In this document: one piece after another, positions 1 through 61,348 of the stretch
Layout of the letters: each line of letters begins with the position of its first letter
Position numbering within the stretch: position 1 is the stretch's first letter
The notes under the pieces: generated by a model
Databases searched by the model: none
What the model was told of the DNA's origin: nothing
The model's input: the letters and a program-made list of their open reading frames with translations, nothing else
Made by a program: the position numbers and the translations under genes
NCBI GenBank assembly: GCA_949752735.1
Contig: OX457042.1
Location: forward strand, 58,541,297 to 58,605,296
Reading direction: 5' to 3'
From: Lumbricus terrestris
Taxonomy: Eukaryota > Annelida > Clitellata > Crassiclitellata > Lumbricidae
DNA: 64,000 nt

Positions 1-686
1 TGCAAAAGGAAATCGAATTAACAGGGATTAGATCTCCCCAAGTAACCGGAACCAGTGAAAGAGAAAATTGTCTATACATCACTGACCATCAAGAGAAATG
101 CGTCTGGAAGATAGCAAGAGAAGAAGATGGCGGACACAAAATCATCAAATGGCTTAAATTTGATTATATCCCACGTAGTATGTCAGTGTCGACTGATGGT
201 CGGTTATTGGCTCTAAATAATTCATCGTCCTCTCTGATGATCTACGGATCAAACGAAGAACTTATTCGATCCATTCAGCTACCAAAAGACATCATGTATT
301 GTGTTCAAGCAGTGGAAACATCCATCGGAAATTTCATCATACTGAGTTTGTCGAATGAGTTGGATATGAAAAAGTGGGCTGTGAGTGAATTGAGCAGAGA
401 TGAACAGATGGTCATCCGTCGCTTTATTCCCTCAAATGAAACACAACGACTGAATCATCCTTCATGTATTTCACTCGATTCAGAGGATCGAGTGCTTGTG
501 GTTGATTCTGTGAATGCTAGAGTGATTCTCTTTGATTCCGATCTTAGATGGATTAGAATTCTTATTCCAACCGGAGAGAAAGAAGAAATGAGAATCGATT
601 GGCCAGGCACATTGTATTACGATGAAGAAAGGAAACAACTGATCGTCGGAGGAGAACATCAACTTAATGTTTACTCTATTAGTTGA
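1..686 (+). CDS. Gene A, last exon only: NHL-type beta-propeller C-terminus (5' end outside window)
   Basis: The reading frame is open from base 3 to the stop at 684-686 and is collinear with the last exon of genes B and C. It starts where their propeller reads NWQKE. Propeller strands are visible, for example SVSTDGRLLALN and a blade with the NHL signature (SLDSEDRVLVVDSVNARVIL). NHL propellers usually bind proteins or RNA. The upstream exons, expected to encode the F-box-like, CARD and TRADD-N-like parts, lie left of the window. The stop is TGA where B and C have TGG AAA TAA, so A ends two residues earlier. An ATG at 180 is internal and should not be taken as the start. Homology to B and C is seen directly; the missing exons are inferred. 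Confidence 0.85.
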   Translation, partial: QKEIELTGIRSPQVTGTSERENCLYITDHQEKCVWKIAREEDGGHKIIKWLKFDYIPRSMSVSTDGRLLALNNSSSSLMIYGSNEELIRSIQLPKDIMYCVQAVETSIGNFIILSLSNELDMKKWAVSELSRDEQMVIRRFIPSNETQRLNHPSCISLDSEDRVLVVDSVNARVILFDSDLRWIRILIPTGEKEEMRIDWPGTLYYDEERKQLIVGGEHQLNVYSIS

Positions 687-785
687 AAATAAACTCACAT
701 TTTGCCCAATTCTTCCCCCGATAATGATCCACTAATTCCATTTTGAATCAACACGCTTCGATGATCTCGGCTTGAGTTACACTTT

Positions 786-999
786 AGTAGTACTTCGGTC
801 TTAACGACACTTTTTCATATCGAAGATGATTAGCGTCGGAGGCAGAGTACAACCTCTCACTCCACGTTTATATTGCGACCGAGCCACCCGCAGTAAAGAT
901 CCGAGAAATTAATCTCTGATAAACCGAACGACCGGGAATCGAATCCGGGTCGCCGGCGTGGCGAGCGGGCTACCAACCCACTCGGCCACTCAGGATTCC
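786..999 (-). mobile_element. tRNA-derived SINE (family 1), minus strand, with 9-bp target duplication
   Basis: Read on the minus strand it begins with a tRNA-like head: an A box near GAGTGGCCGAGTGGG and a B box (GATTCGATTCCCGG), followed by a non-tRNA body. The direct repeat TTACACTTT flanks it at 777-785 and 1000-1008, which fixes the ends. A second copy in plus orientation is at about 3323-3524. The head is too degenerate and the body too long for a working tRNA gene. Confidence 0.85.
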
Positions 1000-1008
1000 T
1001 TACACTTT

Positions 1009-1640: not shown

Positions 1641-1644
1641 ACTG

Positions 1645-2036: not shown

Positions 2037-2136
2037 ATGGGCACAACTGCAGGGAAATGCCTGGGAAAGAAAAGCGAAAGTAATCGCAAACGTCGGAATC
2101 TTGAAATGCGATTTTCTTCAAGCTCCAGAAAGAGAG
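2037..2136 (+). CDS. Gene B exon 1 (N-terminus)
   Basis: ATG followed by 33 codons plus one base, ending at the donor GAG|GTGAGT (phase 1). The peptide begins MGTTAGKCLGKKSESN and is rich in Lys, Arg and Ser. It aligns with exon 1 of C (28904) and D (56855), all sharing R-N/D-x-(E/D)-(M/L)-R-F-x-S-S near the end. Confidence 0.75.
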
Positions 2137-5100
2137 GTGAGTGGAAAGAGACAATTTTTATTGTTTTAACGGACTGCTAAGATTGGTCTACCTCAGTTCG
2201 CTTATCTTTGATCCTATCTCGCTTCATAATCTAACATTATCTCCACTTACCCCTTCTCTGCTACTTTCTACTCACGACTGAAAACCGAACTCTTCAGGTA
2301 ATTTTACCCTTGCACCTCCACAGAGTCCACACTACCACCACCACCACCACCATCATTATGATTATCACAGTAGCACCATGTTGTCTCATATATTCTTTTA
2401 TTGACCTACTGGATTCTGACACAAAAACGAACAGAGGAGTTTGAACATTTATAACGGACTGGATTTCTTGTGGCGCCGGAGAATAAGTTGGTATCTCTAA
2501 AGTGGTTTTTGTGGATGCTAAGAAATCCTCGAACGTCTTAGCTTCATTACATAGTCCCTACAAAGGGGTGGATCCAGGGGGCCAATCCGTCCTTGCCCCC
2601 CATTTAACAAGTGCATGGGACGTGGCCTCCCCAATTTGGTTTCAACAAGCCATTAAATCAATGCAGCGGGAGAGAGACTATTACTTCGACTGATGAAAAG
2701 AAAGTCATCATATTTTTTCTGGCAAAGATCACCAAACATTTTGCCCCCTCCCCTCGAAAATTTATGTATCCTCCTCTGTCTCTACAGTATTATATTGCAA
2801 CGAATGCTGCGAAACAAACGTTGGGAAACGGGAGAAACACAGAACACGTCCTACGATAAAAGCATTTAAGTAATGTTTTTATATTTTTATTTTAAAGGAG
2901 AACATAAAAGACTGTTGAATGGAGAAAATGAACAGAACGTAACTTTGTCTATAAGCCATACAGCGGTGAGATTGTGCGATTAATTTATCTAAATAAGAAT
3001 AGGCCATTATGGCAGTAACGAGGTTAATAACACGACCAACTTGAAGGTCTTATTTGAAAAATTCTTTGACTGATGTTTTGTGTATGAACAAAGAAAGTAT
3101 GACACAATGCACGTGACATAGAATGGTCTTTGGGTCAGTTGCACATACGGTGGCAAGATTCACCAAGTCCCCAGTTGGAAATAAAAGCAATGGGCATTGA
3201 GAAGTCAGACATAAAAGGCGATTAAGTGACGTTTAGCTGGTGTCATAATAATTGTGTGTAAATATAGGCAGTTTTAGGCGGCACCTATAAATAGCGCCCC
3301 TTCAAGATACTACTCAGATAGATATCCTGAGTGGCCAATGGGTCGGTAGCCCGCTCGCCACGCCGGCGGCCGGGGTTCGATTTCCGGTCGGTCGGTTTAT
3401 CAAAGATTAATTTCTCGGATCTTTACTGCGGGTGGCTCGGTCGCAATATAAACGTGGAGTGTGAGGTTGCACTCTGCCTCCGACACTAATCATCTTCAGT
3501 GTCGTTAAGCCCGAAGTACTACTCAGTCGGGAGTTCAAACGAACGAGGGAAGCCGTCAGTCAGCAGTCCACTCGTAGCGAGCTCGTCAGTCGTCAGTCAT
3601 CAGTCCAGTCGAAGGACGGAGCAGCAGTCTAGTTGTGAGGAGCCGCCAGAGTTAGGAGCAGCAGGTCAGTCGTAACGAGCTACAAGTCAGTGCTCGTGGA
3701 AGTCGCAGTCGAAGTCAACAGTCGTCGGGGTCGTTGTCAGGGAGAGAAGGGCTCCTCGACGGTCTGTTCGCAAGACAGCTTTCATACTCCTCAGTCCGCA
3801 TCCGCGTCGGTCCGTAGCATCTTCGGCGGACGTCCGCCTCCATCTTCAGCCTTCGCGTACCTCCTCAGTCTGCGTCCTCGTCTGTTCTCGCGTATTCCCC
3901 TTTTCGAACCATTTGCAGTTTGAACACACCTCATAGCCAGAATTGCTGACGGTATTCTTGTATATACTTTTTATACTGGAGAAGTGAACTTCTTACTTTT
4001 ATTTCTTGTCGAAGAAAATCGATGATATTTGGAGAAATAAGCCTTGAATTCTTCCTTCAGTTACAGCCTCTGACCGCATTAAGTATATAATTCCTGCTCT
4101 GATTCGGCAATGACAGCTTGTTGTTGCCCTGGACAACATGCGAAAATGCCTCAATAAGAAACCAGTAAGCTCTGTTGCTCCAAGGAGTCCACGAATATCC
4201 GATAAACCGCTTCTCTGTTTCGCGCAGAAGGTAGTGGTCTTGGTTCCAATCGCACGAATTAGAACTATGCGAAATCTGTAGGCTTACTTCTGCTTCCTGA
4301 GAATCTTACTGGGGCATTTTTATTCGACACAAAATTCTGGCATTTGCCGTGCTAGAGTTGGGAGCGCCACTGAGCAATCCCGTTGGAGAGACGTAATATA
4401 AATTCTTGAATGAACGAATTGCACAAATGATTGAATGAATGCTTGCTCTCCAATATCGCCAGTGTTAACGCTGCATACGTTTAATTGCAGTTGTATGACC
4501 TTCCACTCGAAATCTTAGACATGATCTTGCAAAAGTCTTATCTGCATTGGATATTGAATAATTATTCACTAACGAAGCAGAGAGACGAAGAAATTATCAG
4601 ATCCCTAATGTCAGTCGACTTTTGTTTAAATCAAAGAATCATCAGAAAACGGTTCAAGAGGGAAATCTGGCGATTATTAAAAGGTAATGTTTCATGTAAA
4701 AGATTGTTGTATTGCATTGCATAAGCTTATTCGTTTAATCGAAAATCAGACAATTCCTGGTGAAACAACGCACCCGGTTACAAGTCAAAACTATCTGTCT
4801 GTAAAATAAAACACAGAAATAATAGAATAGATTGGCCTAAGTATAGTAACATTGATATTAAAAAATATTTAAAAATAATAAAATAAAGTAAAGTAGTGGT
4901 AGCCATAAAAGTCGCCTATCTGTCTGCTTGTTGATCTTAAATGTTAGAGTAAAAGGGTTCTTGAGTAACCACGATGTTCTGATAAAAATGTACTCGGAAG
5001 GAAAAATGCCGATACTCCTGCGTCAAATTCGTAGTAAAAGATGATGAATGTTGTAATATATGCGCAAAGACTAGTCCAATGCTGCAGCTCGACAGCGAAA

Positions 5101-8100
5101 AACTCTTGGATGACGCAGCTGTTCATTGTTAACACACAAGCGACAGCCATGTGGTTAAGATTGTAGGTCATTAAAGCGCAGCGTAGAGATTAGGCTGAAA
5201 TAGATTACCTATGGATCTGAATAATAGTTAGGCGTATGCCTATATTTATTAATTAGATCCATGGATAGCTTGCATAAGTCGACAGGTATCCCAGCGGTGC
5301 TATAACTATGCTACAATTACGCCCATTACTAGGCCTATAGTACATTTAAGCTTCTCTGTAAGTTAGTAGGCCTGGGCTATTACATTTCTCGCCATGGAGT
5401 TTCCATTTAAGAAAGAAGTATTTTCATCAATCCAACCTCAATTTAAGCAAGGATTACCTTAATCAATCTATTGTATTTAAGATTGTAGGTGTTGAAATCG
5501 TCCAAAAACACGCAATTACTCAGGGTTTCCTCGGGAGGCATCACAGAAACAAAACATGTGGTAGGATTAAAAATTCAACTAGGGTAGTCTTCTTGTAAAG
5601 TGTAAATGTTCAATTCTGAATGTCTCCGAAAGAAGCACGAAGAATCGCGATTATTAGTTCCGCCCAGAAACATGGCGACCTCGTGGTGCATGAAATATCG
5701 TTCTGTATCACGGATTTCCTCGCAAATGACTCTGCGGGTATCACAAAATCGGGCCAGGACGCATTATTTAACCGAAAGAAATAATTTATTATCAGAAAAC
5801 GGCTGAAAAACTCAAGAAAATGCTGTATTTTCTCAAACAAAATGCACCGGAAGTGCACACAAGCAAGAACTAGAAAAAAGTTGTCCAACTTAGTTCTCTC
5901 TGTCGCAAGGTTGCAAAGAAATTTTGAAACTAATAGGTCTACAATCTTAAAAGTTATTGAGTGTCATTATCATCCCCAAAGTTATTATGGTTAGCTATCA
6001 ACGGTGCATTTTAAGTAAGCTTACCTCAAAGCGACAGCCATGTGGTCAAGTACTCCATAAAAGCAACCTCCTTCAGGCTACATGGACGATAACATTTTCC
6101 GTAGATAGGTCGTGCAACTGGCTTCCACCGTTCTTGTCCATCAAGGTAACTTCCAATATTGCGGTGTGGCTCAGCTCTTGGGGCGATGCTCTGCCCCGTC
6201 CGATGATGTCGTCTGACCACTCTCTCTGTGAGGTCTTCTCCTATACGTACCATCCATTTGTACGAACATTATTGCTTTGATATATCTCTCGTCGCTCATT
6301 CTACAGATGTTTCCAAACAGTCCTAGCTTTCTCTGGATCAGTTTATGCATGATGTTTTCTTTTAGGTGTATTCTTCTGTACACTTCAGTGTTGTCAACTT
6401 TCTGTGTCCATGTATAATATGTATATCTTCAGAATTTTTTTATAGCACTTTCCTTCGAAGGCCATTATTCTTTGTTATGACCCAAGCCTCGCATCCCTAG
6501 AGCATACCACTGAAAACACACGTCTGCAACACCCTCATTTTTGTTTCCGTATTTATAGGCTGGCTTTTCCAGATTTTGTCAATCGCTTTCAGCGTTGTTG
6601 CCGCCTTTGCTATTCTAACCAATATTTCTTTCCCGTTCTCCAGTTCATATGTCATGTCCTTTACAGTGGCGGCGCTATGGGGGGTTAGGGGGCTACACGA
6701 GGTTAAGCCCCCTCCCCCCCAAAACCAGCCGTTTTTTACAATAAAATTCCACGATTTTCGGTCGATGACTTAAAAAAATTGTCCGAGATTTCGGCGGACG
6801 AAAATGGAAAATTTTCATGAGATTTCGGTCGATGACTAAAAAAGTCGTCAGAAATTTTCGCGGATGTAAATGTAACATTTTCTCCGCGAGGATTCAGCCT
6901 CCTTCCCAAAACTGAAATCCTGACGCCGCCACTGGCCCTTTAGTCTGGAATAACTTACTTAGAACTGTCAAGCCCTTCTCCCACTTTAAACAATTAAACT
7001 GAGCACATATAGCCAAAAAATTATATCTAGTATTACAGAAATAAATTGCCGTTTATTTCATAATTTTTTTTTCATTTTTATTACTTTTCTTCTAGCAACT
7101 AAACATTGATCTCCCAGAATTAATTTTTGCAAGAATTATTTATCTTGCACTTAGGGTCCCTACTTAGCGGGATTTCTTCCTTCAGGGCACCCATTGTTTT
7201 CAAAACACTGTCTTTAACATTAAATATTTTCTTTTATCACATTATTTTGGTGTTTTCAGCTCTTTTGAAAATTGTCTTGTGCACGATTGTTTTGGGTGCA
7301 ATAAAAAAGACAATTATACCTCTTCGCTTCCTCATTCAGGGTTCGTGTTGTGTCCTTTAGTCTCTGCTCGTCTTCGTCTATCACATCAATGTCATCGGCG
7401 AAGCAGAGATTTTTGATTTCTATGCCACTGATTTCCACCCCTCCCTCTTTTTCTCTGATCTTATCCAGAACTCTTTCCAGAAGTACAATGAAGGTGCTTG
7501 GCGATATCGAAACCTCTTGCCTTGTGTCTCTACGTGTCTCAAAACAATCATCTTTTGGTGTATATATAATATACATTAATATGTCTTAAACAGCTGAAGA
7601 TTCGTGAACATCCGTAAGTGTGCATTCCAAATTCCGCGCCATAAATTGCTAATGCTGATCGCCTGTTCAAGTTTTTGCTGGTATTCCAGATATCAAATCA
7701 AACGAAACACACCAGTTAGGCCTACCGCAGCAATCAGTGTTTGGAGTTCCCTTGGTATTCTATCACTGGGCCAGAAAATAATATTCATAATTTTTTTAAT
7801 GAAACTACGGATTTGTACATAGCCTACGCCACATTAGCTTCCTTTGAGTTTCAGTGCATGAAAACTTGGCAGGATAAACTTACCTATGGAATTTGCAATT
7901 TGTGGGCCAGACAGTTCTACGTAAATGCCTTCTTTATTCCAGTTGAATAAATTGCATCACTTTTTCAATTTTAATTTCAATCAAGTTTTTCTATTCCAAC
8001 ACCAGAGATTTCTATTCACTTAGAAATTCGAACAAAATATTTTGCTAATGATGAAATTTCCTGATGTAGGCCCAGGGGAGATCCAGGGGGCAATCCGGCC

Positions 8101-9715
8101 ATGCCCACATTTCAAAAGTGCATAGGGCGTGCCCCACATTTGATTTCAGCAAGCATTAAATAAATGCACCGAGTCGTGCGGGAGCGAAACGTAACGTACG
8201 ACGAGACTAGAGAAGTCATAGTAGGCCTATAATAATTATTATTTTATTTTGCTTGCCAAAATTGCTCCAACCATGACTGATGACTAAGAAAGGTCATCAG
8301 TTATTTTGGAAAAGATCGCCGAAAATGTTGCCCTTCCTCAAACGTTTCTGTATCCGCCCATGTGTAGGCCAGCAATGCGGTGATGACATTCAAAGGCAGG
8401 CATGGTTTTATTGTCTTTTAGATTTCTATGAAAAAACAAAGAACAGATCTGCAATCATAAGAAACAACAAAGACTATCTCTTAGAAAATATTCAATCAAA
8501 TGATGAATTAATCGCTTCGCTGTTGTCTCTCAACTGCGTAACGCAAAAACAAAGTCACTTAATAAAGCGACAGAATTCAACACAAGATAAGAATTCCGAG
8601 CTCCTGTACGTCGCGAAATCTTTCGACGAAACAAAGTTTTCAAACTTCGTCAAATGTCTTCGACAAACCAACCATAAAACAGTGACAAGGATCATAGAAA
8701 ATGGAGGAGGTGAAAAATATAAATTTTATTTAAAGACCAATGATTTACACATGACACATGCTTCATAATAATAATAGTTATATAAAATTATTAGAACTTT
8801 TAGTATGACATAATTGAGCAAAACGTGGCCGTTCCAGACGACACTAGCTATGTGCTCAAGTTTAAATTATTGTTATTATTATTATTTTCATTCTTGTTAT
8901 TATTGTTATTGCACTGAAGTATAGTATTGCTGTCATTGTTATAATAATAACAATTATTATTATTGTTGCTTTACTAATTATAGTGCAACTGAATCTTATA
9001 TATATTTTAGTAAGTCCGTGTGTTTGTTTGTTTATTAGCTATGCACGGTCTCAATTTTGAAGCAATCGACCCCAATCCTTCGCAGGGAGTCGGGGTCGAC
9101 CCGACACTGGTCATAGGGGGTCGGCGAATCTCTGTCACCATAGGGGCCATGGTGGGGGGGGAAAGCCCTCATTTTCCCTGTTGGCCGTTTCTCACACAGG
9201 CTTACGGCAGTACTTTTCATTCGGGTCCCATACACATAAAAGCAGCGGTTGAGGCCGTTTTAGAGGTGTTTAAGGCCAGCGCTTTTGCCAGTCCGGATTT
9301 CACGGGTCGCGCACCGGTCGAGGTCGGTGGGGTGTGGTGTGGTGTGGTCATGGAGGAAGAGAGGCTAGGAGGGAGGGTGGGAGGGAGAGAGGGATGGAAG
9401 GAGGGTGGGAGTGATGGTGGGATGGAGGAAGAGACGGAGGGAGGGTTTGGCAACGCCGGGTACCCCAGCAACTTAATAATAATAATATCAATAAGCTTAT
9501 ACCATTAATAATAATAATAACATTATAAAGTTATTATTACTATTTCTATTATTATTTTAGCACAATAATAATAATTATATTTAATATTATTTCTGTTACT
9601 TTTTGCTATTCGAATTGTTGTTGTTGCTGCTGTTAGTAATAATTATAATAGACCTAATAATAATAATAATGATGATGATGGCGACGACAACGACGACGAT
9701 GACGATGACGATGAC

Positions 9716-9748
<33 letters not shown>

Positions 9749-12700
9749 AATAATAGTAGTAATAATAGTAATAATAATAAATTTATGGTAATGATAAGAT
9801 AATGACAATATTCTATTCACTTCCTCCATGAAATAGGCCAGCGTCTCTCGGTCATTTCTTCTAGCGCCTTTCTATCTGTATTCAGAGCTACGACGCCATT
9901 GCATTGTTTTAGGAGAGCGAGGCCTGATTTTCCAGACATCCATCAACAGCTCCTGTCATAATTGTTTTTAATCCCGAGAAATCTGAGGTACCTCGGGTAA
10001 AACAATAATGATAATGGATAGGAATTTATACCGAATACCATCGAGATCATTCCGATACCTTGAATTATTTTTAGGTTTAGCCTAATTAATATGTCCTATC
10101 GTGTCATGTATCCTACAAGCCATTGCATAATCAACTATAAAAACTCCATTAGGTCTAATGTGCAACGGTGAAATCTTGTGAAAAGCGTCTTAAGAAGAAA
10201 ATCCTTGTGGTGGTTAAAACCAACATAACAAGTCCCTGCTTAAAAAGTGTTTAGGTGCATCTTTACACCTTACAATTTTTTAATTACTAGGCGGCCTAGA
10301 TGAAATAATATTTCAAACTTGGACGTGCTGCCTCAGTACGCTTTGAGGTTTAGCATCGAATTCCTTTCCTGACTGTTTTTGTCATTAATTTTTTTCGGCC
10401 GAGAAAAAAACATTTAGCCTATCATCTACAAGTTGTTTATCTCAAACATCCAATAAAACAATTAAGTTTTGTCAATTTTGCTCTATTCAATTCAATGACT
10501 CTTATTTCGTTATCACAACGTGTTCCGTTCATTGTCGAAATAAATAGCCTATATCCGTGTACTTGCGTTTTAGGCCTAATAGCCTACTGTTATTCATGAA
10601 TTGGCCGTTATGATTACCCTACCTGAGTAATAATGACATTTTATTTGAAGAGCGTGTTATTAATTCTTGCTCAAATTAGACGAAGCTTAATTTCGGTAAC
10701 GTGTCCTCATCCTACAAATTATTATTTTCAGTTTATGCGTCTGAGCAGTTTGCTAAAAATTATTTTGAAAACATTGCTTTTAGGTACAACAAAAATTGAG
10801 CTGAAATTTCGAGGTGCAAGGTGTACACCGTTAATAATTGAATCACAACTGCTTCAACAGAAAATCGAAGATCTTCGAAGTAAAACAAAACCACGGTCAC
10901 ATGAAAATGACAAAATCATCAGTCAACTGAAGGACGTAGGAATAGAAATCCTCAACTCTCGTTTGGATAGACAGACTGTAGTCGTTTGGATCTGGTGTCG
11001 TTCACAATCAGCCCTTCAACATATTCAGAAGTTGTATGAATCGAATGAGCTGAGAGATGTTTTCGTTGAAACTTTTCAAACTCCGATTTCAATGGTAATC
11101 AGCGTCGATAGAAATCAATTCAAGAAAACCATTGGCAAGTATTTCTGAACGCTTTCGTCATAAAGGAAAATATCTGGAACATGCAATCACCACCACCAGT
11201 GGCGTAGACAAGGGGTGTTTCGGGGTTTAAAACCCCCATTTGCCTAGGAAACAAGTTTTTTAAAGTTATTTATCCACTTAAACAAGAGAAAACGAAACAA
11301 TTGTTTGTAGTAACAATTGTTTTCTTACTTTATTCCTCTTGTTACTTTATTCCCTTTTTATTTACCGTATTTATACTGCTGGGCTGGTGTCAGAAAGGGC
11401 ATCCGGCCAGGCCATAACCCCCCCCCAAAAAAAACAACAACAACCCCATCATATAGGCTATGCCTGGTTACCCCACGGAACACCACATGTGATCTTTGAT
11501 TATTAATAATAGTAAATGATTAAGTCAGCGCGTGTTAACATGATCAGGGTTTACTATCAAAACCGCGCACACAAGACCGCGCACACAAAACCGCGCACGA
11601 TCATTACCGCGCACGATCATTACCGCGCACTATCATAACCGCGCTTGTTGCGCATCTGTTCAACTTCGAAATTGCAACGTTCTAGATCTAGGGACTCCGA
11701 ACATTCCTTTGAAATCAGTATTCGGTCAACGATCCTAGCCACTCTTGTTTGAGCACCTGTTTAACCCTTATAGGGTCACCGGGGGGTAAAAAAATACCCC
11801 CAACTCGGTTTTTCGCGGAAATTTTAATCCTTGAAAATAGTTGAAGAAATCGCTTCTGTGACTTTTCCTAAATATGTTTCCTGCACAGAATGCATCCAGT
11901 TTCATTAGTTATTCATGCACCCATATAAGCTATAAAGTCAGTGGTGTAGTCCTAAAAAATGAAGTGGGGGGACGCCTGGAAATTGAAGTGGGGGGACGCC
12001 ATGGAAATTGAACTAGAAACTGTAGCAAAAAGTGCAATCTTGCAAGAATTTTGCAAAAAGTGGGGGGACGGCGTCCCCCCGCGTCCCCGCCCCACTACAC
12101 CACTGTATAAAGTACGAAAATGTACCACGTCCTAGCTTTTTTACTCAGGAATTTTTAAACATAGCATTATGCATGCTTAACACATGAGTGTCTTACTGTT
12201 ACAATGTCTCCTTATCAGTATCTGGACATTATAATTGAAATCGTTTTGGTTTCAGAAAATTAGGATGAATAAATGAAATTGTATACAGAAAATCACGCGA
12301 AGTTAGCAAGTATAATGTAATGTAATGTAATTAGTAATTTATATAGCACCGCTCACAACCAAGGCCATTCAGTAGCGCTCCCAGTGCGATAACCCCTAGA
12401 GAAAAAAATAGGTCTTAAGAAGATAGAGAGATGTAGATAACGATCCTGAAAGTAGAGTCCCACGCAGAGTGGAGAGAAGAGAATTCCACAAGGAGGGCCC
12501 AATGATGGTGAAGGATCGAGTTTGAGCAATAGCTCGTGGAACAAACAAGTCAGCCCTGTCCAGAGAACGGAGAGGTCGATGAGAAGATGCTGATAGAGGA
12601 GAACGAATGAGATCACTGAGATACATCGGTGCAAGACCCAGTTTGGATTTGAGTACCATGCAGAGAAAGGACTTTATATTGTATAGCATCAAGCCCTACT

Positions 12701-15093
12701 GCTGTCGAAGTGCGATCTTGCCATGTACACTTGAACGCAATTGCATTGACAGCAACAAGGCCTGAATAGACTGTATACCTTTTATCTGACAAGTTATGAA
12801 ACATTGAAACTATTGATAGATCAAGTTATGAAACATTGAAGTATCAATATGGCACATTATAATGCCAGCAATAGTTAAACTGCAGTGTAATCATAGGCTA
12901 CTAAAAATTTCGACTAGATATGATTATTTCATTGCATAATAGGCTCAATGCTACATATAGAATGTGGCTTTCATGAAATTATTAGACCAAGAAATTAAAA
13001 AATCATAATCATTAGATACAGAACTTTACTGATAGCCAATTCAAGAATCTGGCCGCCATTTCATCCCAATTGTGGTTTCCTTGCAGTGCCATATAAGTGA
13101 AATTGGTTCCATCGCATTCATTGGCCTCGAAAATGCTGATTTAGACCTTGAGATCATGTTTCCATTGTACATATGACTTCACTAATAGCCATTTTAATAT
13201 TCTGGCCGCCATCTTGTCCGCCATTTTGATTTTCGTGCAGTGCCACCTATGTGACATGGGTTCCATTGCATTCCTTGACCTCGAAAATGTTGATTTGGAC
13301 TCTGAAATCATGTTTCCATTGCATACATAACTTCACTTATAATAGCCAATTAAGATTATGGCCGCCATTTTGTCCGCCATTTTGATTTTGCTGCAGTGCT
13401 GCATATGTTACTTTGGTTCCAGCGCATACCGCGAACCTTCCATAAATAACTTCTTTTAGTTTTATACTTGACTTGAAAATCGGAGTTTATCATAGGAATC
13501 ATGCGGTTGAGAAAAATCGTGACCCTATGAGGGTTAAGCTGTGTCACGACAACTGGTCTATAGAAAACTGGTCCGGCGCTTGAGCAATGGAAGCTGGGTT
13601 TAAACATTTTAGAGGTGAAATGGAGGCTGGATTGATGAAAAACGCAAGAGAAATTGAGGCTGGATGAAGTTTCTTTTACAGGTGAAATAGAAGCTGGATT
13701 TACGAAAATAACGCATGAGAAATGGAAGCTGGATGAAAGTATTTTTATATATGAAATAGAAGCTGGAATGACGAAAATAGAGCATGAGAAATGGAAGCTC
13801 GATGAAGGTATTTTTTAGATATGAAATAGAAGCTGGATTGACGAAAATAGCGCACGAGAAATGGAGGCTGGATTAAAGGTATTTTTAGATATGAAATAGA
13901 AGCTGGATTGACGAAAATAGAGCATGAGAAATGGAAGCTGGATGAGGGTATTTTTACATATGAAATAGAAGCTGGATTGACGAAAATAACGCATTAGAAA
14001 TGGAAGCTGGATTAAAGGTATTTTTAGATATGAAATGGAAACTGGATTGACGAAAATAACGCATGAGAAATGGAAGCTGGATTAAAGGTATTTTTTAGAT
14101 ATGAAATGGAAGCTCGATTGACAAAAATAACGAACAAGAAATAGAAGTTGGATGAAGGTATTTTTAGATCTGACATGGAAGCTGGATGCATGTTTAAATA
14201 CTTGAATGCGGTTATGATCGTGCGCGGTAATGATCGTGCGCGGTTTTGTGAAACGCGGTATTGTTTGCGCGGTTTTGTGTGCGCGGTTTTGACCGGATAC
14301 CCATGATGAGCAGGATGGATGTTGAAGTGGACAATCCCTAAATGTAAATGTATATGAATACTGTATAGTATAAGTCGTGAGACACGGTGGCTGATTGGTT
14401 AGAGTGGTCGACCTGTAACGCTGAGAGTACGGGTTCGATCCACGTTAGAGGCGGTTGCTTTGTAGGAATCTAAAGCAAGTCTTTCATTGCTCTGCAATAT
14501 ATATTTGCAATTTGCGCCGTCGAGGCGTGTGGAGGTTTTGCAAATTTCAGTTGTATTGTATAAGTCTGAGACAATTATTGTTTCTTGCGGTATATTATCG
14601 TAAAGCTACTTTATTTCTATTTAGGTATTCTTCCTGGAGTAAAATTAAGATATTGGATGGAATCATAAAGTGGGAAATATACAGATGGGAAAGGTCAGAT
14701 AGGCAACAAGAGACTTGCAGTGATATGGAAAGTATTAAATATGCTTAGACGAGGAGCAAATTAAATTAACAAATGAAGATTATAATGAAGAACATAGTTA
14801 CAACTCCCATGATCTAAGTAACCAACTCCTTTCTATTTCCTGGTGAATCATAATAGAAATATAAAATAGCCAAATATTATTCGTGGACGCCGTGGTGCTG
14901 TGGTAAGTTCGGCGCCTTGTGACCGAAAGGTCGCAGGTTCGAATCTATACCTCAAGTTACTGCGTATCAAGTTGCTCACCCACATATTATCTGTGAGGAA
15001 GGCAACTGGAAACAACCTCACCCATCTCATCCCCAAAGGGTCTAAGGTCAATGAACCTGCATTCGGGCAGAGAATTAACCGTCATCATCATCG

Positions 15094-15172
<79 letters not shown>

Positions 15173-15238
15173 CGTCCCCATCCCCATCACCACCACCACT
15201 ATCACCACCATCACCATCACTATCATCATCACCACCAC

Positions 15239-15283
<45 letters not shown>

Positions 15284-16377
15284 CGTCCCCATCCCCATCA
15301 TCACCACCACTATCACCACCATCACCATCACTATCATCATCACCACCATCAATCATCATCATCATTCAGTTATAAAACAGAAGATGAACTGTAAAAATTA
15401 AAGCTAATAACTAGCGGTCAATTATTTGCAAATTATTAATTACTTTGTTGTCTCTTGTATTCTTTATTGTAGTCGTGCGTGCGTTTTCCATCAGTTTTAC
15501 TCAGAGAATCAAGACACAGAAAATTAGAGATCTGTCTGTGCGTGGAGTGACTAAGTTGCGAAACGAAATCTACATACTCTTCTTTATATCGTCTTCTCCT
15601 CCTCCTGTAATTCATGTCTTTGAAGATCAAAATCCATTTAATTGGCAAAAAGAAATCGAATTAACAGGGATTGGTTATCCCTATGACGTTGGATCCAATC
15701 AAATGGAAAACTGTCTCTATATCAATGATTTGTATGATAATTGCGTCTGGAAGATAGCAAGACAAGAAGATGGCGGACACAAAATCATTAAATGGCTTAA
15801 AATTGATTTTATATCACGTTGTATGTCAGTGTCGACTGATGGTCGGCTCTTGGTTATAAATAAATCATCGTCATCTCTCAAGATCTACGGATCAGACGCA
15901 GAACTTATTCGATCCATTCAGTTACCAACAGACATCACGGATTCTCGTCATGCAGTGGAAACCTCCATCGGAAATTTCATCATACTTCATAGATTGACAC
16001 AACAGAAAGGAGGGAGTGGGTCGTATGAGTTGGCAATGAAAGAGTGGGGCGTCAGCGAATTGAGCAGAGATGGGAAGATGGTCATTCGACGCTTTATTCA
16101 CTCAAATGAAACACAGCGCATGAATGAGCCTCGTCATCTCGAAATCGATTCAGACGATCGAGTGTTTGTGACTAACTCTGGGAATGGTAGAGTGATTCTC
16201 TTTGATTCCGACCTCAGATGGAATAGAATTCTTATTCCAACCGGAGAGAAAGAAGAAAAGAGGATCCATTGGCCAGACACATTGTATTACGATGAAGAAA
16301 ATAAACAACTGATCGTTGGAGGAAATCAATTCGGAGGAGAACAACAACTTAATGTTTACTCTATAAGTTGGAAATAA
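2037..16377 (+). CDS. Gene B: F-box-like / CARD / TRADD-N-like / NHL-propeller protein, six exons
   Basis: Proposed coding exons are 2037-2136, 2898-2965, 4491-4683, 8422-8709, 10784-11138 and 15495-16377. They sum to 1887 nt, or 628 residues plus stop, with matching phases at every junction (1,0,1,1,2). Domains in order: a charged N-terminus (about 1-56), an F-box-like segment beginning LYDLPLEILDMIL (about 57-120), a CARD (about 121-216), an alpha/beta region that I read as TRADD-N-like (about 217-334), and a six-bladed NHL-type propeller to the end. No signal peptide or membrane segment is visible, so a cytosolic protein is expected. CARDs join innate-immune or death complexes, and F-box proteins recruit SCF ubiquitin ligase. 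The combination suggests an adaptor with a propeller receptor, which is inference. The family resembles the expanded death-fold repertoires of invertebrates. The introns are loaded with transposons, but the coding frame is intact. Assigning the start to 2037 rests on conservation of exon 1 in C and D. Confidence 0.75.
2376..2500 (+). other. Conserved block in intron 1 of gene B
   Basis: The sequence around GTAGCACCATGTTGTC recurs in intron 1 of C (29240-29335) and D (57200-57290). In C and D it stays open and reads PDFDLTQE, but B has a 5-nt deletion and no shared splice donor is present. It is probably an ancient intronic segment or a regulatory element rather than an exon. Confidence 0.4.
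2563..2778. mobile_element. hAT-type MITE in intron 1 of gene B
   Basis: Short imperfect terminal inverted repeats (left AAGGGGTGGATCC, right end reading CAGAGGAGGATAC in reverse) are flanked by an 8-bp duplication, TCCCTACA / TCTCTACA (one mismatch). Its interior resembles the element at 8073-8362. It has no coding capacity. Confidence 0.65.
2898..2965 (+). CDS. Gene B exon 2 (68 bp, linker)
   Basis: The acceptor TTTTAAAG and the donor GCG|GTGAGA bound a 68-bp exon that accepts phase 1 from exon 1 and delivers phase 0 to exon 3. It encodes about 23 residues including RLLNGENEQN. Splicing exon 1 straight to exon 3 would hit a stop at once, so this exon is needed. The same site in C (29543-29610) and D (59683-59753) has matching length, phase and splice signals. 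Confidence 0.75.
3323..3524 (+). mobile_element. tRNA-derived SINE (family 1), plus strand, in intron 2 of gene B
   Basis: It begins CCTGAGTGGCC, has a B box close to GGGTTCGATTTCCGG, and shares the whole 200-bp body and the end AAGTACTACT with the minus-strand copy at 786-999. The target duplication is not clean. The empty position in gene C lies after the shared word TACTCAGA. Confidence 0.8.
3525..3940. other. GC-rich, GTCAGT-rich segment of unknown nature
   Basis: About 400 bp with many short GTCAGTC, CAGTCGTAG and CAGCAG words and a base composition clearly richer in G+C than the flanks. It follows the SINE directly and is absent from the same intron of gene C. It could be a decayed LTR or leader of a retroelement, but no LTR termini or coding similarity are visible. 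Confidence 0.35.
3941..4490. other. Rest of gene B intron 2, including a pre-insertion (empty) site
   Basis: No gene is seen. The word ACTGGGGC at 4308-4315, followed by ATTTTTATT, is the unoccupied counterpart of the site where gene C carries a 14 kb composite insertion flanked by ACTGAGGC. The intron ends with the acceptor TTTAATTGCAG. Confidence 0.6.
4491..4683 (+). CDS. Gene B exon 3 (F-box-like segment)
   Basis: Acceptor TTAATTGCAG, donor AAAAG|GTAATG, 193 bp, phase 0 to 1. It encodes LYDLPLEILDMIL, then a loop, then SLMSVDFCLNQRI, RKRFKREIW. The LPxEIL..IL start, the following SLMSV helix and the late basic and Trp residues fit the F-box pattern that binds Skp1. The match is by eye and moderate. 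The closest relatives are exon 3 of C and D, each 6 bp shorter. Confidence 0.7.
4684..6020. other. Intron 3 of gene B, first part
   Basis: No gene is visible. About 5975-6130 shares a block with gene C at 44890-45000 (CGGTGCATTTTAAG, then CTTCAGGCTA), so it is ancestral intron. A segment near 5095-5170 recurs in part near 6030 (CGACAGCCATGTGGT). Confidence 0.4.
6030..7580 (-). mobile_element. Degenerate non-LTR retrotransposon (LINE) fragment, minus strand, interrupted by a MITE
   Basis: On the minus strand 7576-7256 encodes a reverse-transcriptase piece with the catalytic-site motif FADDID and a VEISGIEIKNLCFADD context. Further downstream, 6655-6030 encodes the typical LINE C-terminal tail (RRIHLKENIMHKLIQRK, GLFGNICRMSDER, DGTYRRRPHRE). 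The order is right for one element read right to left. Frameshifts and stops show it is dead. The gap between the two parts contains the hAT MITE at 6664-6934 and unassigned sequence. Confidence 0.75.
6664..6934. mobile_element. hAT MITE inserted in the LINE fragment
   Basis: Terminal inverted repeats CAGTGGCGGCG at both ends, with an 8-bp duplication GTCCTTTA / GCCCTTTA (7 of 8). The same family occurs at 18523-18766 and 55152-55441. The interior carries short related stretches with GATTTCGG and GATGACT. Non-coding. Confidence 0.85.
8073..8362. mobile_element. hAT-type MITE just upstream of gene B exon 4
   Basis: Perfect 8-bp target duplication TGTAGGCC at 8065-8072 and 8363-8370. The ends are CAGGGGAGATCCAG and, in reverse, CATGGGCGGATACAG. 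It is related to the MITE at 2563-2778. Gene C has the single-copy site near 46425 (TCTAGGC), which confirms the insertion. It ends only about 60 bp before the CARD exon. Confidence 0.8.
8422..8709 (+). CDS. Gene B exon 4 (CARD)
   Basis: Acceptor TTGTCTTTTAG, donor GGAG|GTGAAA, 288 bp, phase 1 to 1. It encodes a six-helix CARD pattern: RNNKDYLLENIQ (helix 1), ELIASLLSLNCVT, QSHLIKRQNSTQDKNSELL, KFSNFVKCLRQ and TRIIEN. CARDs make homotypic contacts in inflammasome-like and apoptotic complexes. Exon 4 of C has exactly the same length and about three quarters identical residues. Confidence 0.85.
8994..9472 (+). mobile_element. Non-autonomous Helitron in intron 4 of gene B
   Basis: The 5' end starts TCTTATATATATTTTAG followed by GTCCGTGTGTTTGTTTG, a typical Helitron start. 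The 3' end carries CAACGCCGGGTACCCCAGC, almost the same as the last bases of the intact Helitron at 26570-26592, but with CAAC instead of the terminal CTAG. It is flanked by A and T. The middle is a purine-rich stretch with no gene. Confidence 0.75.
9480..9790. repeat. AT-rich trinucleotide microsatellite cluster
   Basis: Runs of AAT, ATG and GAC triplets between 9476 and 9785, with a pure (GAT)n core near 9700-9745. The long one-residue open frames in this stretch on both strands come from the repeats. Confidence 0.85.
9825..10017 (+). mobile_element. LINE 3' end remnant in intron 4 of gene B
   Basis: An open stretch reading HEIGQRLSVIS and then a 3' hairpin (CCCGAG..CTCGGG) running into an AT-rich tail. 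The related copy in intron 4 of gene C (47038-47340) has the same order: tail peptide, CCTGAGG hairpin, (AAT)n. It is probably an old insertion that predates the B/C duplication. Confidence 0.45.
10784..11138 (+). CDS. Gene B exon 5 (TRADD-N-like alpha/beta domain)
   Basis: Acceptor TTGCTTTTAG, donor CAA|GTATTT, 355 bp, phase 1 to 2. It encodes helices (ESQLLQQKIEDLRSKT) and strands (VGIEILNSR, QTVVVWIWC, SMVISVDRNQFKKTIG). The pattern of GIEIL, a basic turn, VVVWIWCRS, a helix, then LRDVFVETF resembles the N-terminal TRADD-like fold found next to death-fold domains in invertebrate proteins; that assignment is from memory of the family. If the donor is not used, translation stops three codons later (KYF then TGA), which would give a form without the propeller. 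Confidence 0.75.
11197..11478. mobile_element. hAT MITE in intron 5 of gene B
   Basis: The left end CAGTGGCGTAGACAAGGGG and the right end (reverse: CCGTGGGGTAACCAGG) are the two termini of the family also seen at 60813-60977. The target duplication is ACCACCAC / AACACCAC, and gene C shows the single empty site AACACCAC near 48115. Confidence 0.75.
11939..12105. mobile_element. hAT MITE nested in the TTAA element
   Basis: Perfect 8-bp duplication TATAAAGT (11931-11938, 12106-12113) and inverted ends CAGTGGTGTAGT / CTACACCACTG. The 167-bp interior repeats AAGTGGGGGGACG. Confidence 0.9.
12310..12700 (-). mobile_element. LINE fragment of L2/CR1 type, 3' end, minus strand
   Basis: On the minus strand two overlapping frames give the C-terminal tail typical of L2/CR1 reverse transcriptases: LGLAPMYLSDLI, RSLDRADLFVPRA, GPSLWNSLLSTLR and SLYLLKTYFF. 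It is followed by GCTATATAAATTA and short ATTAC repeats (a tail near 12311-12330). One frameshift near 12400 shows it is inactive. Confidence 0.75.
13025..13440. repeat. Tandem repeat, about 155-bp unit, roughly 2.7 copies
   Basis: Units start near 13028, 13185 and 13338. Each contains TAGCCA, then CTGGCCGCCAT, then TTGCAGTGC or the like, then GACCT(T/C)GA and TCATGTTTCCATTG. Confidence 0.75.
13605..14190. repeat. Tandem repeat, 70-bp unit, about 8 copies
   Basis: The unit contains ATGAAATAGAAGCTGGATTG, ACGAAAATA, GCATGAGAAATGGAAGCTGG and GGTATTTTTAGAT. It lies between the nested TTAA element and the right end of the outer TIR transposon. Confidence 0.85.
14383..14455 (+). mobile_element. 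tRNA-derived SINE head (family 2) in intron 5 of gene B
   Basis: The A box region GGCTGATTGGTTAGAGTGG and the B box GGGTTCGATCC resemble a tRNA with degraded stems. The same element is at the same place in gene C (48248-48338), so it was inserted before B and C separated. Confidence 0.65.
14881..15365 (+). mobile_element. tRNA-derived SINE (family 3) with a long CAT/CAC microsatellite tail
   Basis: Head GTGGTGCTGTGGTAAGTTCG and B box GCAGGTTCGAATC, followed by a body with CCACATATTATCTGTGAGG. From 15080 it runs into (CAT)n broken by CAC and CCTCGTCCCCAT units to 15365. The same SINE sits at 48811-48998 in gene C. The long His, Ile, Met and Asp open frames here are artefacts of the repeat. 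Confidence 0.8.
15495..16377 (+). CDS. Gene B exon 6 (NHL-type beta-propeller, stop)
   Basis: The acceptor choice is decided by phase. CCATCAG|TTTTACT at 15495 continues the frame from exon 5 (phase 2), whereas TTATTGTAG at 15473, which has the better pyrimidine tract, would give a frameshift and an early stop. The exon encodes six propeller blades, for example INDLYDNCVWKI, SVSTDGRLLVIN and a canonical NHL blade (EIDSDDRVFVTNSGNGRVIL). The final TAA lies inside the hexamer AATAAA. Confidence 0.75.
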
Positions 16378-19740: not shown

Positions 19741-19759
19741 CAGCTCTGAAGTGTATGGA

Positions 19760-19791
<32 letters not shown>

Positions 19792-21370: not shown

Positions 21371-21551
21371 ATTCTCCTTCGTATTCATCGTTTTTAGTGA
21401 ATTGAAACCTACTTCATTCAAATAACGGGGCCAAAAAACCTATGCAATCACGAAACGCACATAAATCACATACATACATAACTATTCTCCACCTTTATTC
21501 TCCTTCGTATTCACTCTTTTTTAGTGATTTGAAACCTGCTTACTTCGAATA

Positions 21552-27500: not shown

Positions 27501-27504
27501 GTTT

Positions 27505-28903: not shown

Positions 28904-50051
<21,148 letters not shown>

Positions 50052-52850: not shown

Positions 52851-52854
52851 TCGC

Positions 52855-54650: not shown

Positions 54651-54651
54651 T

Positions 54652-54985: not shown

Positions 54986-55151
54986 TGTAAATTTCAGCAA
55001 CTCTTTTCTGCTGCTAGTGGACAAAATTATTATTATATAGGACTTTATTGAACTAGAATCAGCTTATCCCTGTTGCTCAAGATAGTCCTAAATTGCTGAC
55101 AAGTATACAATAATATTAGCAGGAATTCTTATAAAAGTTACGCAAGCCAAA

Positions 55152-56580: not shown

Positions 56581-56589
56581 CCAAGCTTC

Positions 56590-56854: not shown

Positions 56855-56951
56855 ATGGAGGCCACTGCAGGAAAAGATTTGGGAAATGAAAACGAAAATA
56901 ATCCCGAACGTCGGGATCCTGATTTGCGATTTTCTTCAAGTCGCAAAAGAG
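56855..56951 (+). CDS. Gene D exon 1
   Basis: 97 bp, phase 1, donor GAG|GTCAGT. The end RRDPDLRFSSSRKR is the best conserved part among the three copies. Confidence 0.7.
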
Positions 56952-59900
56952 GTCAGTGGAAGAAACAGTTATTATTCTTCAAATGGACATTGGACAGCCA
57001 TGAGATCCCGCCAGTTTGCTCATCGACGGTAGCCTAATCGCTCTTTCCTTTATCTAACCTCTCATCCACTTACACGTCCTCTGCTACTTTACACTCACGA
57101 CTGTAAACTGAACTCTTTTTGCAATGGCCTGCTATACAGATTTTACCCTGACACCACCATTCCACCATACCACCACACCGCCACTGTCATTACTTATTAT
57201 CACCGTAGCACCATGTTATCCCCCAAGTTTGTCCTTACCGGATTTTGATCTTACTCAAGAAGGAAGAGAGCAGTTTGGCCATAACGGACTTGAGTCGTAT
57301 ATCGCCGGTGTAAAGGTTTCAAATTACCCCCTAAACATTGCACCCTGCAAACTGTAATTTGTATCAATCATCGCACGTAGGCATATTGCACTAAAAAAAT
57401 CAGAAAAATTATCCCGCATCTTGTTTCACCGGTGATTAAGTTGATCTCACTGGAAAGGTTTTCGTTGATGCTGAGAAATTCTTGAACATCTAGGGCCTAT
57501 ACACCACACCCGTTGCCAAAAATGCAAAAAGAAGCGCCTGAATTCATAGGCGAAGACTTGGCCCAGATTAAGGGCGACACGAACGAGCGGTAGAAGGATG
57601 ATTGGCGAGGCGCGAAGCGCCAAGCAGGAGAGAGGTTTGGGGGACACTTCAATGGTGGCATTCTAGGCTGTCATTTTAACGAAAATTAATTGTTTATTAT
57701 TTCAGTGCTTATAGGCTTGTCGTGGTTTAAAACTTCAAGATTGTCTCCTCCCGTTCTTTCACATAATATTATTCGTAAATTTCCGCACTGTAATGGGTGC
57801 ATTATGAGCGGAAAAAACCACGGAATAAGACTTCAAAAAATGAATCCGCTGCATTTTAAAAATGTTAATTAGGCCTACTTTATACAATACACACTGTCGG
57901 TTTAATGGCTGCATTTTTTCGCTACCATCTCAACAAAATTGTTGATGTTTGATGCGCAGTGGATAACCACTGCAGAAAATTATGCTGATATTTCTGAAAT
58001 ATTGGGGTGTAAGCACTAAACAGCTCCGCTTCACCGCATATTTTATTTTACTCTGCCTATGGCCGGACGCCCCAACTTTCCCGTCCCTTCCTCCAACCCA
58101 TCCCATATATCAATTTGATGGCAAATACAACAAGGTTTTTAAAACTTGTCCTATTGTCAGCTTGCATTTCTAGAATAGGTATCGGCCTAGATATGTTATG
58201 GCAGGTTGACATTAATAGGTCAGATAGAATTATTATAGGCCACTCAGTCAAAACACGGGTTGCCTGGTAGAGTAATGGATAACACGCTGGCGTTGAGTGC
58301 GAGAGGTAACGAGTTCGAGCCCCCGTTGGGCGTACATGCTTTGTAGGCTGCAACTATTAGCGCCATGCATTGCAGGCTATCTGTTCAGTTAGTATAATTA
58401 TTATGTATAGTGTATTCTGTGATCGGTGTTCTTGTAAATGATTTCAACTGCATGATTGTACACGGTTGCGGTCTGTCAACCGGATGGTTCATTAAAGGAA
58501 TATTGTAAGTTTACGTTTCAGATTATTGATTAACTAATATTGTTTTGCTGCTTATTTGCATTTTCCCGCTTTTCTCGTGTGGTGACGTCGATAATGCAAA
58601 AATATTGTCGTGGCTGACCGTAGAAATTATATAGCCTAAGATAAGATGTATACGCTAAGTAGGCCTATGTTCCTTTTCCATTAAGTTAATTGATCTATCC
58701 GCATTTTGGTGTATGATAAACGCAGCTACGTCACTTGTCGAGTCAATAAACGTCAACTGTTTACAAGTTAGTGCTGCTACTAGAATAGACAATTTGATCG
58801 AAATTAATCGCACGATTAATTTTTTAATCGCAATTCTTCTCTTATTTAAGTTATCTGCCCCTCGGCAGGTTTCAATTTCCAATGACGCCATTCTTCTCTT
58901 CGCTGAGTTTTTCTCTTCAGTTCGTTGTATCCTTCAGTCATCATCTATACCAGCATCATCTGTCTCGGTCTTCCTCTCTTTCTTTTTCAGTCCAATCTCT
59001 TTTCTATGATATCTCTCAAGAGGGAGTCTTCTCTTAATATGTATCCAATTCAGTTCTTTTGATTTTCTCTTAGAGATGTCATCAGTGATCTTTTTCTCCT
59101 ACTCTTTACAGTAAGCTTACCTATTCATTTGTCACTTTCTACGTCCAGCTCACCTTTTCCATCCTTCTCCATATCCACATTTCGAAGGTTTTCAGACTCT
59201 TGCAATTAACTGAACATTAATCGCAACACCTTTCCATCAAGTAGGTACATGTTAATTTTCATATTTTTACATGAACTCCTGAAGCATATATTATGACTGC
59301 ATGCATAAATTCTATTACAAACAGCTAATATAGCTTTTGTCTTAGGCACATTGAATTCCTCTACACAGCTTGTGGAACAGTTTTGTATTGAAACGATGTT
59401 CAAACCAGTCAACTGTTCAAAGACCGTTAATTTTTAGTCTGAGCGACCTTTAAAAAATGACACAAATTAGACATCCGATTCTCTTTCTATAAAATTATTT
59501 ATTTAGCCAATTGCTTAATAAGCAGATCAGTTTAATTTACATCGGTCGGTAATGATAGGCCATGCATTACATTGCAACGAATGCTGCAAAGTAAATGGCG
59601 GGGAAAACTGCGATATATAGCCTAGAACACATCTTAAGATAAAAAGTTTAATTAACTTATTTTCAATATTTTTATTTTGAAGAAATATATAAAAGACTGT
59701 CGAATGGAGAAAAAATTGAACAGAATGCAACACCGTCTAGAAGTTATACTGCGGTGAGTTTGTGCAATTGTCTATCTTTAATAACACGATCAACTTGCTT
59801 TGTGTATGAACGAAGGAAGTATGGTAAAATGGTTGAGGGATAAGAATGAACTTTAGAAAGGTTGCTCGTGCGGGATCAAGGATAACCAAGTTCCCGGTTG

Positions 59901-61348
59901 CAGATGAAGGCAACGGACATTGACAAGTCACACATAAAAGGCGATCAAGTGACGTTTAGCTGAGGGTACAATAATATTGTGAGTAAATTATCTCTTCCAG
60001 TTATGGCATTTCAGTGGTTGTCAGCCCGGGGCACGCGGGCCAGAAGTGGCCCGCCAACCCTAAAAAATGGCCCTCTTCCTTAAAAGAATTAACAAAAATA
60101 TATGACTAAATAGACAATTTGGACAGGATAGAACACATAACTAGGCTACATTAATTTCCATTACAGACTATTTTATTTCTACGTCTATAAATAACATCAA
60201 ACGTTCTATTTTGATTCAATTATAACTTTTTTCATGCTTATGCTAATTAAATGTTAGCCCTGTGGAGTTGTGGACCCCTAACGTCCATCCACTATCAAAA
60301 AGTGGCCTTCGTATCCTCCAACTTAGAATAAGTGTGCCGAAAATCAAAAAAGGTTGGGAACCGTTTGTTTAGCCTGATAATTTGCAACTGCAGCATACAA
60401 CGCAAAGCACGTTATTAAGTAACAATAAAAAATAACTAATAATTAACCGAGTCTCACGCTCAGAAACCATCTAAGTGGACAAATTAAAAATTTTTGTCAT
60501 GTCTCCAGCTATAAATAACGTTAGAGACATTACTCAATCTGCCTAAACGGCAGCGCATTGAGTATAGGATCGCTGCGCTATTGCTCGGCAATGTCAGCTT
60601 GGCGTGGCCTCTGACTACGTGTGAAAATACCTCAGTGAGAGCGCCAGGAACACCTCTCCTCAAAGGGTATCCAATGACACCGCCTATCAGCTTTGCGCAG
60701 ACCGACTTCCCCCTTGTCCCATTCTCACGGACTACAACAGTCACTATGCAGAATCGAGACTTTTACCATGTTGACCCAGTGGTCTTGAATGGGTTCCCAT
60801 AAGAGCTATGTCCAGTGGCGTAGCCAGGAATTTTTCATGGGGGGGTTTTATGGCCGAAAACCCTGTTTTTTCCCTATTTTTCTTACTTAAATGGAAAAAT
60901 AACCTTAAAAAAACCTTTTTCAGGAGCCAATGGGGGGGGTTTTAACCCCCGAAACCCCCCCCTTGCCTACGCCACTGGCTATGTCTGCATTACGACTCAG
61001 AACGCTGGCTTTTAGCCGTGGTAGAATCGGGAGCGCCTCTGAGTTGTCACTGGACGAAGCACTGTAGAAATTCTTGACTGAATGAATGAAAGAATGAATA
61101 AATGATTCAATGACATCCAATATCGTCTTCCAGTGTTAACATCGCATTTTTTAAAATCCAGTTGTTCGATCTTCCACTGGAGATCCTGGACATGATCTTA
61201 CAAAAGTCTCATCTGCACTGGATTTTGAATTCATCACTAAAGCAAAGAGAAGAAGAAGTTGTCAAGTCTCTAATGTCAGTCGACTTTTGCTTCAATCAAA
61301 GAATCACCAGAAAACGGTTTAAGAGATCAATCTGGCGTTTCTGGAAAG
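56855..61348 (+). CDS. Gene D, exons 1-3 of the same family (3' part beyond the window)
   Basis: Exons 56855-56951, 59683-59753 and 61162-61348 have the same phases (1,0,1) as in B and C. They encode MEATAGKDLGNENENN.., RLSNGEKIEQNATP and the F-box-like LFDLPLEILDMILQKSHLHW. Exon 1 is one codon shorter and exon 2 one codon longer than in B and C. No CARD exon is found in the remaining 2.6 kb, so exons 4-6 should follow outside. Intron 3 already contains a TTAA-element end and the ACAT satellite. The visible part has no stop or broken splice site except that the exon 1 donor is GTCAGT, less usual than GTGAGT. Confidence 0.7.
56952..59682. other. Intron 1 of gene D
   Basis: It contains the family block at 57200-57290 and a segment (57306-57430) that also occurs upstream of gene B. 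No other gene or element end is recognised apart from the tRNA-like SINE head at 58258. Confidence 0.4.
58258..58335 (+). mobile_element. tRNA-like SINE head
   Basis: GCCTGGTAGAGTAATGGATA (A box) and ACGAGTTCGAGCCCCCG (B box), 35-40 bp apart, with outer arms GGGTTG and TGGGCG that do not pair well. Likely a SINE relic rather than a tRNA gene. Confidence 0.45.
59683..59753 (+). CDS. Gene D exon 2
   Basis: Acceptor TTTATTTTGAAG, donor GCG|GTGAGT, 71 bp, phase 1 to 0. It encodes RLSNGEKIEQN and ends YTA. Confidence 0.75.
59754..60812. other. Intron 2 of gene D, first part
   Basis: The first 250 bp align with the same intron of B and C (CACATAAAAGGCGAT(C/T)AAGTG). Then no recognisable gene or element until the MITE at 60813. 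Confidence 0.4.
60813..60977. mobile_element. hAT MITE, intron 2 of gene D
   Basis: Perfect duplication GCTATGTC (60805-60812, 60978-60985). Ends CAGTGGCGTAGCCAGGAA and, in reverse, CAGTGGCGTAGGCAAGGGG. 165 bp, same family as 11197-11478. Confidence 0.93.
61162..61348 (+). CDS. Gene D exon 3 (F-box-like segment)
   Basis: Acceptor TTAAAATCCAG, donor AAAG|GTAAGG, 187 bp, phase 0 to 1. LFDLPLEILDMIL then SLMSVDFCFNQRIT and RKRFKRSIWRFWK. Confidence 0.72.

Follow-up and report, generated by a model that had tools for sequence, protein, structure and literature searches.

The closest described kind of system to the genes treated here is the set of lineage-specific TRADD-N expansions in marine invertebrates, in which the DEDD2 clade reaches 17-168 copies in cnidarians and 18-23 in echinoderms, and the NCOA6 clade 357 copies in Amphimedon (Kaur et al. 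2021, PMC8195603). We analyzed a 64,000-nucleotide stretch of the Lumbricus terrestris genome (1.056 Gb, 331 contigs), hereafter the window (G000:C8:58541297-58605296, C8 being contig OX457042.1), which carries genes of a family encoding an F-box-like segment, a CARD, an α/β domain and an NHL propeller. This family resembles the TRADD-N expansions in being lineage-specific, in placing a death fold before an α/β domain where the constant part meets the variable part, and in ending with a β-propeller, which in the published cases is of the WD40 type and occurs in amphioxus and oyster; its copy number (at least 150 scored) also lies within the published range. It differs in that the death fold is a CARD where a DED is usual, the propeller consists of NHL instead of WD40 repeats, and an F-box-like segment is added, and the terms F-box and NHL do not occur in the text of PMC8195603. 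The family is placed nearest to expansions with death folds and WD40 propellers, as a putative TRADD-N member, and our searches of literature listings, confined to open-licence papers, showed no account of its full domain combination. We consider it probable (roughly 0.6) that the family consists of tandemly expanded cytosolic recognition-signaling proteins with a role in immunity. This reading draws on the conservation of the CARD and junction domain, the diversification of one propeller face, the very large tandem repertoire and the exchange among copies.

Stop-to-stop frames and self-comparison revealed four family paralogues in the window, all on the forward strand, and exon boundaries were placed at splice signals and tested for agreement of phase, as follows.

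1..686, + strand: gene A, 3' part of the NHL exon (full exon G000:C8:58541071-58541985)
2037..2136, + strand: gene B exon 1, start ATG and short polar N-terminus (similar exon in C, D and six region units)
2898..2965, + strand: gene B exon 2, phase 1 to 0
4491..4683, + strand: gene B exon 3, F-box-like segment of three helices (no match to a Pfam F-box family)
8422..8709, + strand: gene B exon 4, CARD (Pfam E 2.2e-5, above cut-off)
10784..11134, + strand: gene B exon 5, α/β (TRADD-N-like) domain, GC donor (splice signals, phase, alignment)
15473..16377, + strand: gene B exon 6, NHL propeller and stop (NHL just below cut-off; fold by homology to the P0001 model)
28904..29003, + strand: gene C exon 1 (splice signals, phase)
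29543..29610, + strand: gene C exon 2 (splice signals, phase)
44602..44788, + strand: gene C exon 3, F-box-like segment (splice signals, phase, motif)
46475..46762, + strand: gene C exon 4, CARD (E 3e-6 and 2.2e-6 in two Pfam scans)
47713..48060, + strand: gene C exon 5, α/β (TRADD-N-like) domain, GC donor (splice signals, phase)
49192..50051, + strand: gene C exon 6, NHL propeller and stop (NHL 1.1e-4, above cut-off)
56855..56951, + strand: gene D exon 1 (splice signals, phase)
59683..59753, + strand: gene D exon 2 (splice signals, phase)
61162..61348, + strand: gene D exon 3, F-box-like segment (splice signals, phase)

Splice signals and phases were consistent across the models of genes B, C and D, which bears out the preliminary description of four paralogues in one orientation with open exons and matching phases. 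Genes B (six exons, 2037-16377, 634 aa) and C (six exons, 28904-50051, 616 aa) are complete, whereas A and D are incomplete inside the window. Gene A enters it with part of its last exon only; its other exons, judged by position, lie just before the window, with family matches at C8:58535835 (F-box-like, with an in-frame stop), 58536705 (CARD), 58538228 (α/β) and 58541071 (NHL), and its NHL exon stops two codons ahead of the usual end, as in units R4 and R7 of the region described below. Gene D shows its first three exons (56855-61348) before the window ends, and among the matches listed beyond them there is an NHL match at C8:58612234 with no CARD or α/β match between. Exon 1 ends in phase 1, exon 2 runs from phase 1 to 0, exon 3 from 0 to 1, exons 4 and 5 from 1 to 1, and exon 6 from 1 to the stop; since exons 4 and 5 are symmetric, skipping or shuffling either one would preserve the reading frame. 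The α/β exon ends at a GC donor in nine of the ten units seen (B, C and seven of eight region units; GC-AG donors lie at 11134 and 48060 in genes B and C), and the tenth, unit R2, has a canonical GT at the same base, which supports the exon boundary.

Profiles built from the family were run on the window and on a 200-kb region of the same contig (C8:58130001-58330000, 7,500 bases masked), with three partial rows of E far above 1 left out. The order exon 1, exon 2, F-box-like, CARD, α/β, NHL recurs head to tail in the region, with exons 1 and 2 undetected in some units. The profiles found 8 F-box-like, 8 CARD, 8 α/β and 9 NHL exons in the region and 3, 2, 2 and 3 in the window, all on the forward strand and none on the minus strand. 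All four folded exons are present in seven region units and two window units; the others are cut by an edge, except R5, where only an α/β exon (with a stop) and an NHL exon were seen. Median identity is 76-90% in the family exons and 43-63% in 150-nt flanks, and together with the strict strand and order this argues for more than a chance pattern.

Genome-wide, at E<=0.001, we counted at least 150 F-box-like exons (150 of 150 scored; 326 candidates), at least 150 CARD exons (150 of 150; 456 candidates), at least 150 α/β exons (150 of 150; 348 candidates) and NHL exons in at least 135 places (from 125 scored of 1,293 candidates). The expansion proposed from the window is far larger than the window could show, with at least 150 scored matches per middle exon. 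Among the matches listed, most fall on C8 at 41.8-61.3 Mb, a second cluster lies on C10 at 6.3-9.2 Mb, and stragglers occur on C1, C2, C4, C11-C19, C80 and C310. The α/β exons of the C10 cluster are 51-59% identical to that of gene B. One C10 gene (L049) has CARD, α/β and NHL exons, the last 45% identical, and at 42.7 Mb on C8 a divergent unit (L052) has F-box-like, CARD and α/β exons, which suggests that the architecture predates the split of the clusters.

Such numbers could also reflect mostly drifting, decaying duplicates without special function. Stops occur in 6/150 α/β, 4/150 CARD and 1/150 F-box-like scored matches, and inside the α/β exon of unit R4, and R5 is reduced as described (in a region with 7,500 of 200,000 bases masked). 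However, frames are open in most copies, exons are far more conserved than their flanks, and median ratios of nonsynonymous to synonymous divergence (dN/dS; Nei-Gojobori, 36 pairs of nine units) were 0.32 for the F-box-like segment, 0.39 for the CARD and 0.44 for the α/β domain, values that already strain this explanation and leave it highly improbable. The ratio for the NHL exon was 0.76, and the gradient indicates that the N-terminal domains are kept while the propeller changes.

That these exons belong to one gene was addressed by a protein search, which gave at least eight proteins at E<=0.001 among 3,814 candidates. One of them, P0001 (531 aa), is encoded by a frame of a 1,884-nt contig and contains F-box-like segment, CARD and NHL propeller in this order, unbroken. 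Given the kilobase introns in the genome, this contig is most simply a spliced transcript, from which we infer its RNA nature. The absence of the α/β domain from P0001 is compatible with exon skipping, or with a paralogue or subfamily lacking that exon. The proposal that exons 3-6 form one gene thus stands for three of the four domains, and the α/β exon is probably joined to them, as judged from phase and order.

Of the domain assignments, the CARD was confirmed: PF00619 matched 13 of 13 family members at E<=1 (best 1.4e-9), with the exons of B and C above the curated cut-off. In the P0001 structure model, four confident helices span 94-148 (block predicted local distance difference test (pLDDT) 83-94), where a death fold would have six, preceded by a low-confidence stretch modeled as strands. 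By Pfam the domain is a CARD like those of the adaptors and sensors CARD8, CED-3, cIAP1, NOD1 and caspase-9, whose CARDs matched weakly in a PDB profile search (E 0.08 and up), ranked below a designed protein. Unlike these proteins, the family has no NACHT or caspase domain in the scanned exons (Pfam found no NACHT or NB-ARC match in exons 3-6), and its propeller would be the recognition module.

The α/β domain is plausibly TRADD-N-like. Its low-confidence model (pLDDT 46) suggests the order of strands and helices b-a-a-b-b-a-b, which would agree with the order in TRADD, and Ser 59 at the b2-b3 turn is invariant in 22 of 22 exons. Profiles did not confirm the label: PF20694 matched two of the 22 (best E 0.022) while unrelated families matched more members, and as well or better, a genome-wide search gave no matches at E<=0.001, with control genomes likewise silent, and hhalign against human TRADD 1-164 gave p 0.62.

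The F-box assignment fared worse, and with it the suggested coupling to ubiquitination lost its support. If the family consisted of substrate receptors of the SKP1-cullin-F-box (SCF) type, a divergent F-box would bind SKP1, the propeller would pick targets for ubiquitination, and the CARD would scaffold or select CARD-containing targets. F-box plus propeller is a known design, as in WD40 and LRR F-box proteins, and the family shares with FBXW7 and β-TrCP a short helical N-terminal segment with LPxE, present in 11 of 11 exons, and a C-terminal propeller. Three helices are predicted in P0001 (block pLDDT 47-63), and in a profile-profile comparison the first 12 columns aligned with F-box helix 1 (p 0.011, probability 3.7%; CARD control p 0.42). 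However, none of the 11 exons, nor their consensus, matched a Pfam F-box family, and the sole F-box-type match in the Pfam scan, F-box-like_2 in one longer frame, was below cut-off (E 0.11). Unlike FBXW7 and β-TrCP, the family also has a CARD and an α/β domain in between and NHL instead of WD40 repeats. We regard SCF receptors as unlikely.

The six-bladed NHL propeller, in turn, was borne out. PF01436 was above cut-off in the A and C exons and just below in B, and the P0001 model has a six-bladed fold whose nearest neighbors are the NHL domains of TRIM2, TRIM3, Thin, Lin41, Brat and Mei-P26. The same neighbors would suit RNA regulators of the TRIM-NHL type, for instance of transposon or maternal RNA, with the CARD serving condensation only and the expansion tracking genomic parasites rather than microbes; the window does hold two long terminal repeat (LTR) elements (repeats 99.5-99.6% identical) and a Helitron frame. 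NHL domains, including those of Brat and Lin41, bind RNA via their top surface, according to PMC9070667. In contrast with TRIM2, TRIM3, TRIM71, Brat, Thin and Mei-P26, the family is massively duplicated and has a CARD and an α/β domain in place of RING and B-box, neither of which was found by Pfam in exons 3-6 (exons 1 and 2, of ~33 and ~23 residues, were unscanned and are too short for either). TRIM-NHL genes are few and conserved, whereas this family is diversified, and TRIM-NHL proteins are not known to carry a CARD. We hold RNA regulation of this kind to be improbable.

To locate the variation, we took the NHL exons of B and C, those of nine units in the region and those of 27 loci in the upper ranks of the genome-wide list, leaving out the partial gene A; 38 were extracted and one was dropped as the same locus, leaving 37. 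By parsimony, the overall ratio of replacement to silent change was 0.81 over 288 columns, 28 of which reached p<0.05 for excess silent change. When variability was mapped onto the strands predicted for P0001, it was higher in loops than in strands (a difference reached by 4 of 280 circular shifts), and adjacent loops alternated between high and low. In our reading of the NHL motif, from which the strand names are taken, the high loops would correspond to B-C and D-A, on the top face, and the low loops to A-B and C-D, on the opposite, bottom face. The top face showed 10.9 replacements per site against 3.8 on the other, an omega-like ratio of 1.02 against 0.55, and a mean loop entropy of 1.56 against 0.59 bits (Mann-Whitney p 3.6e-5, 12 vs 11 loops; 0 of 100,000 permutations), and the contrast held in both halves of 30 non-redundant sequences. 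Top loops contained 85 of the 123 gap columns and bottom loops 3, while the other 35 fell outside the loop ranges. The R4 NHL exon (G000:C8:58203399-58204358) has gained ~26 residues in frame, mainly aspartate, next to a bottom loop, and long acidic insertions are likewise present in the relatives P0003-P0008, at a different loop. A variable face and a dense array could also serve allorecognition, that is, self/non-self discrimination between individuals by polymorphic propellers with a death-fold output; the models show no signal peptide or membrane segment by eye (no predictor was run), and we hold this to be very improbable.

Exon histories conflict. The NHL tree was rejected by the F-box-like, CARD and α/β data in approximately unbiased (AU) tests (p 0.0005, 0.0002 and 0.0007), and the CARD and α/β trees were rejected by the NHL data (p 0.0015 and 0.0006). 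Median synonymous divergence was 0.18 in the α/β exon against 0.27-0.38 in the others. The simplest reading is that gene conversion or unequal exchange between copies may have occurred.

Several points weigh against an immune recognition role with one diversified face. Columns with excess replacement at p<0.05 numbered 17 of 288, near chance, and a top-face ratio of about 1, not clearly above it, leaves room for relaxed constraint. The low loops include conserved turns of the NHL repeat, making the contrast partly generic, and 26 of the 35 outside gap columns are the single R4 insertion, which adjoins a bottom loop and in that copy runs counter to the face pattern. The alternation of faces was seen before being tested; the correction for this is small, since the topology permits two splits only. 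The exon trees cover nine units only, and the F-box-like tree was rejected neither by the NHL data (AU p 0.076) nor by the CARD data (0.11). Taken together, the receptor-adaptor role first suggested is consistent with purifying selection on the CARD and the variable propeller face, the ubiquitination arm is unsupported, and an immune function is what we infer from this pattern.

The window also contains mobile elements. A young LTR retrotransposon (31941-39400; 540-bp repeats 99.6% identical) lies in intron 2 of gene C, and its minus-strand open reading frame (32594-38314) has integrase upstream of reverse transcriptase, an unusual order known from Gmr1-like Ty3/gypsy elements. Adjoining it in the same intron is an element that appears copia-like by eye (39494-44015; forward-strand frame 39744-43565; 200-bp terminal repeats 99.5% identical). 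A Helitron-type frame (21528-26486; Helitron_like_N 1.7e-45, PIF1 8.1e-65) lies between genes B and C; close to its N-terminus it contains about eight 69-base units in tandem.

If the family does act in immune recognition and signaling, the propeller top face would bind diverse ligands, such as microbial or damaged-self RNA, protein or glycan, and binding would rearrange or cluster the α/β domain, which sits at the constant/variable junction as TRADD-N switch domains do. The CARDs would then assemble and recruit a common downstream CARD partner, which would start inflammatory or death signaling. Diversity would be germline-encoded and renewed by tandem duplication and exon exchange among neighbors. 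We give somewhat less than an even chance to the reading that the family is a class of germline-diversified invertebrate immune receptors not described before, with hundreds of CARD-coupled NHL propellers, one hypervariable binding face, and recognition and signaling exons reshuffled among neighbors in megabase arrays; its propellers would then play the part that LRR repertoires play in NLRs and VLRs. How animals without antibodies recognize many microbes is an open question, and the family allows a direct test of whether the top face binds microbial or stress ligands and whether binding triggers CARD assembly. It further offers a naturally occurring collection in which a single scaffold carries many NHL top faces.
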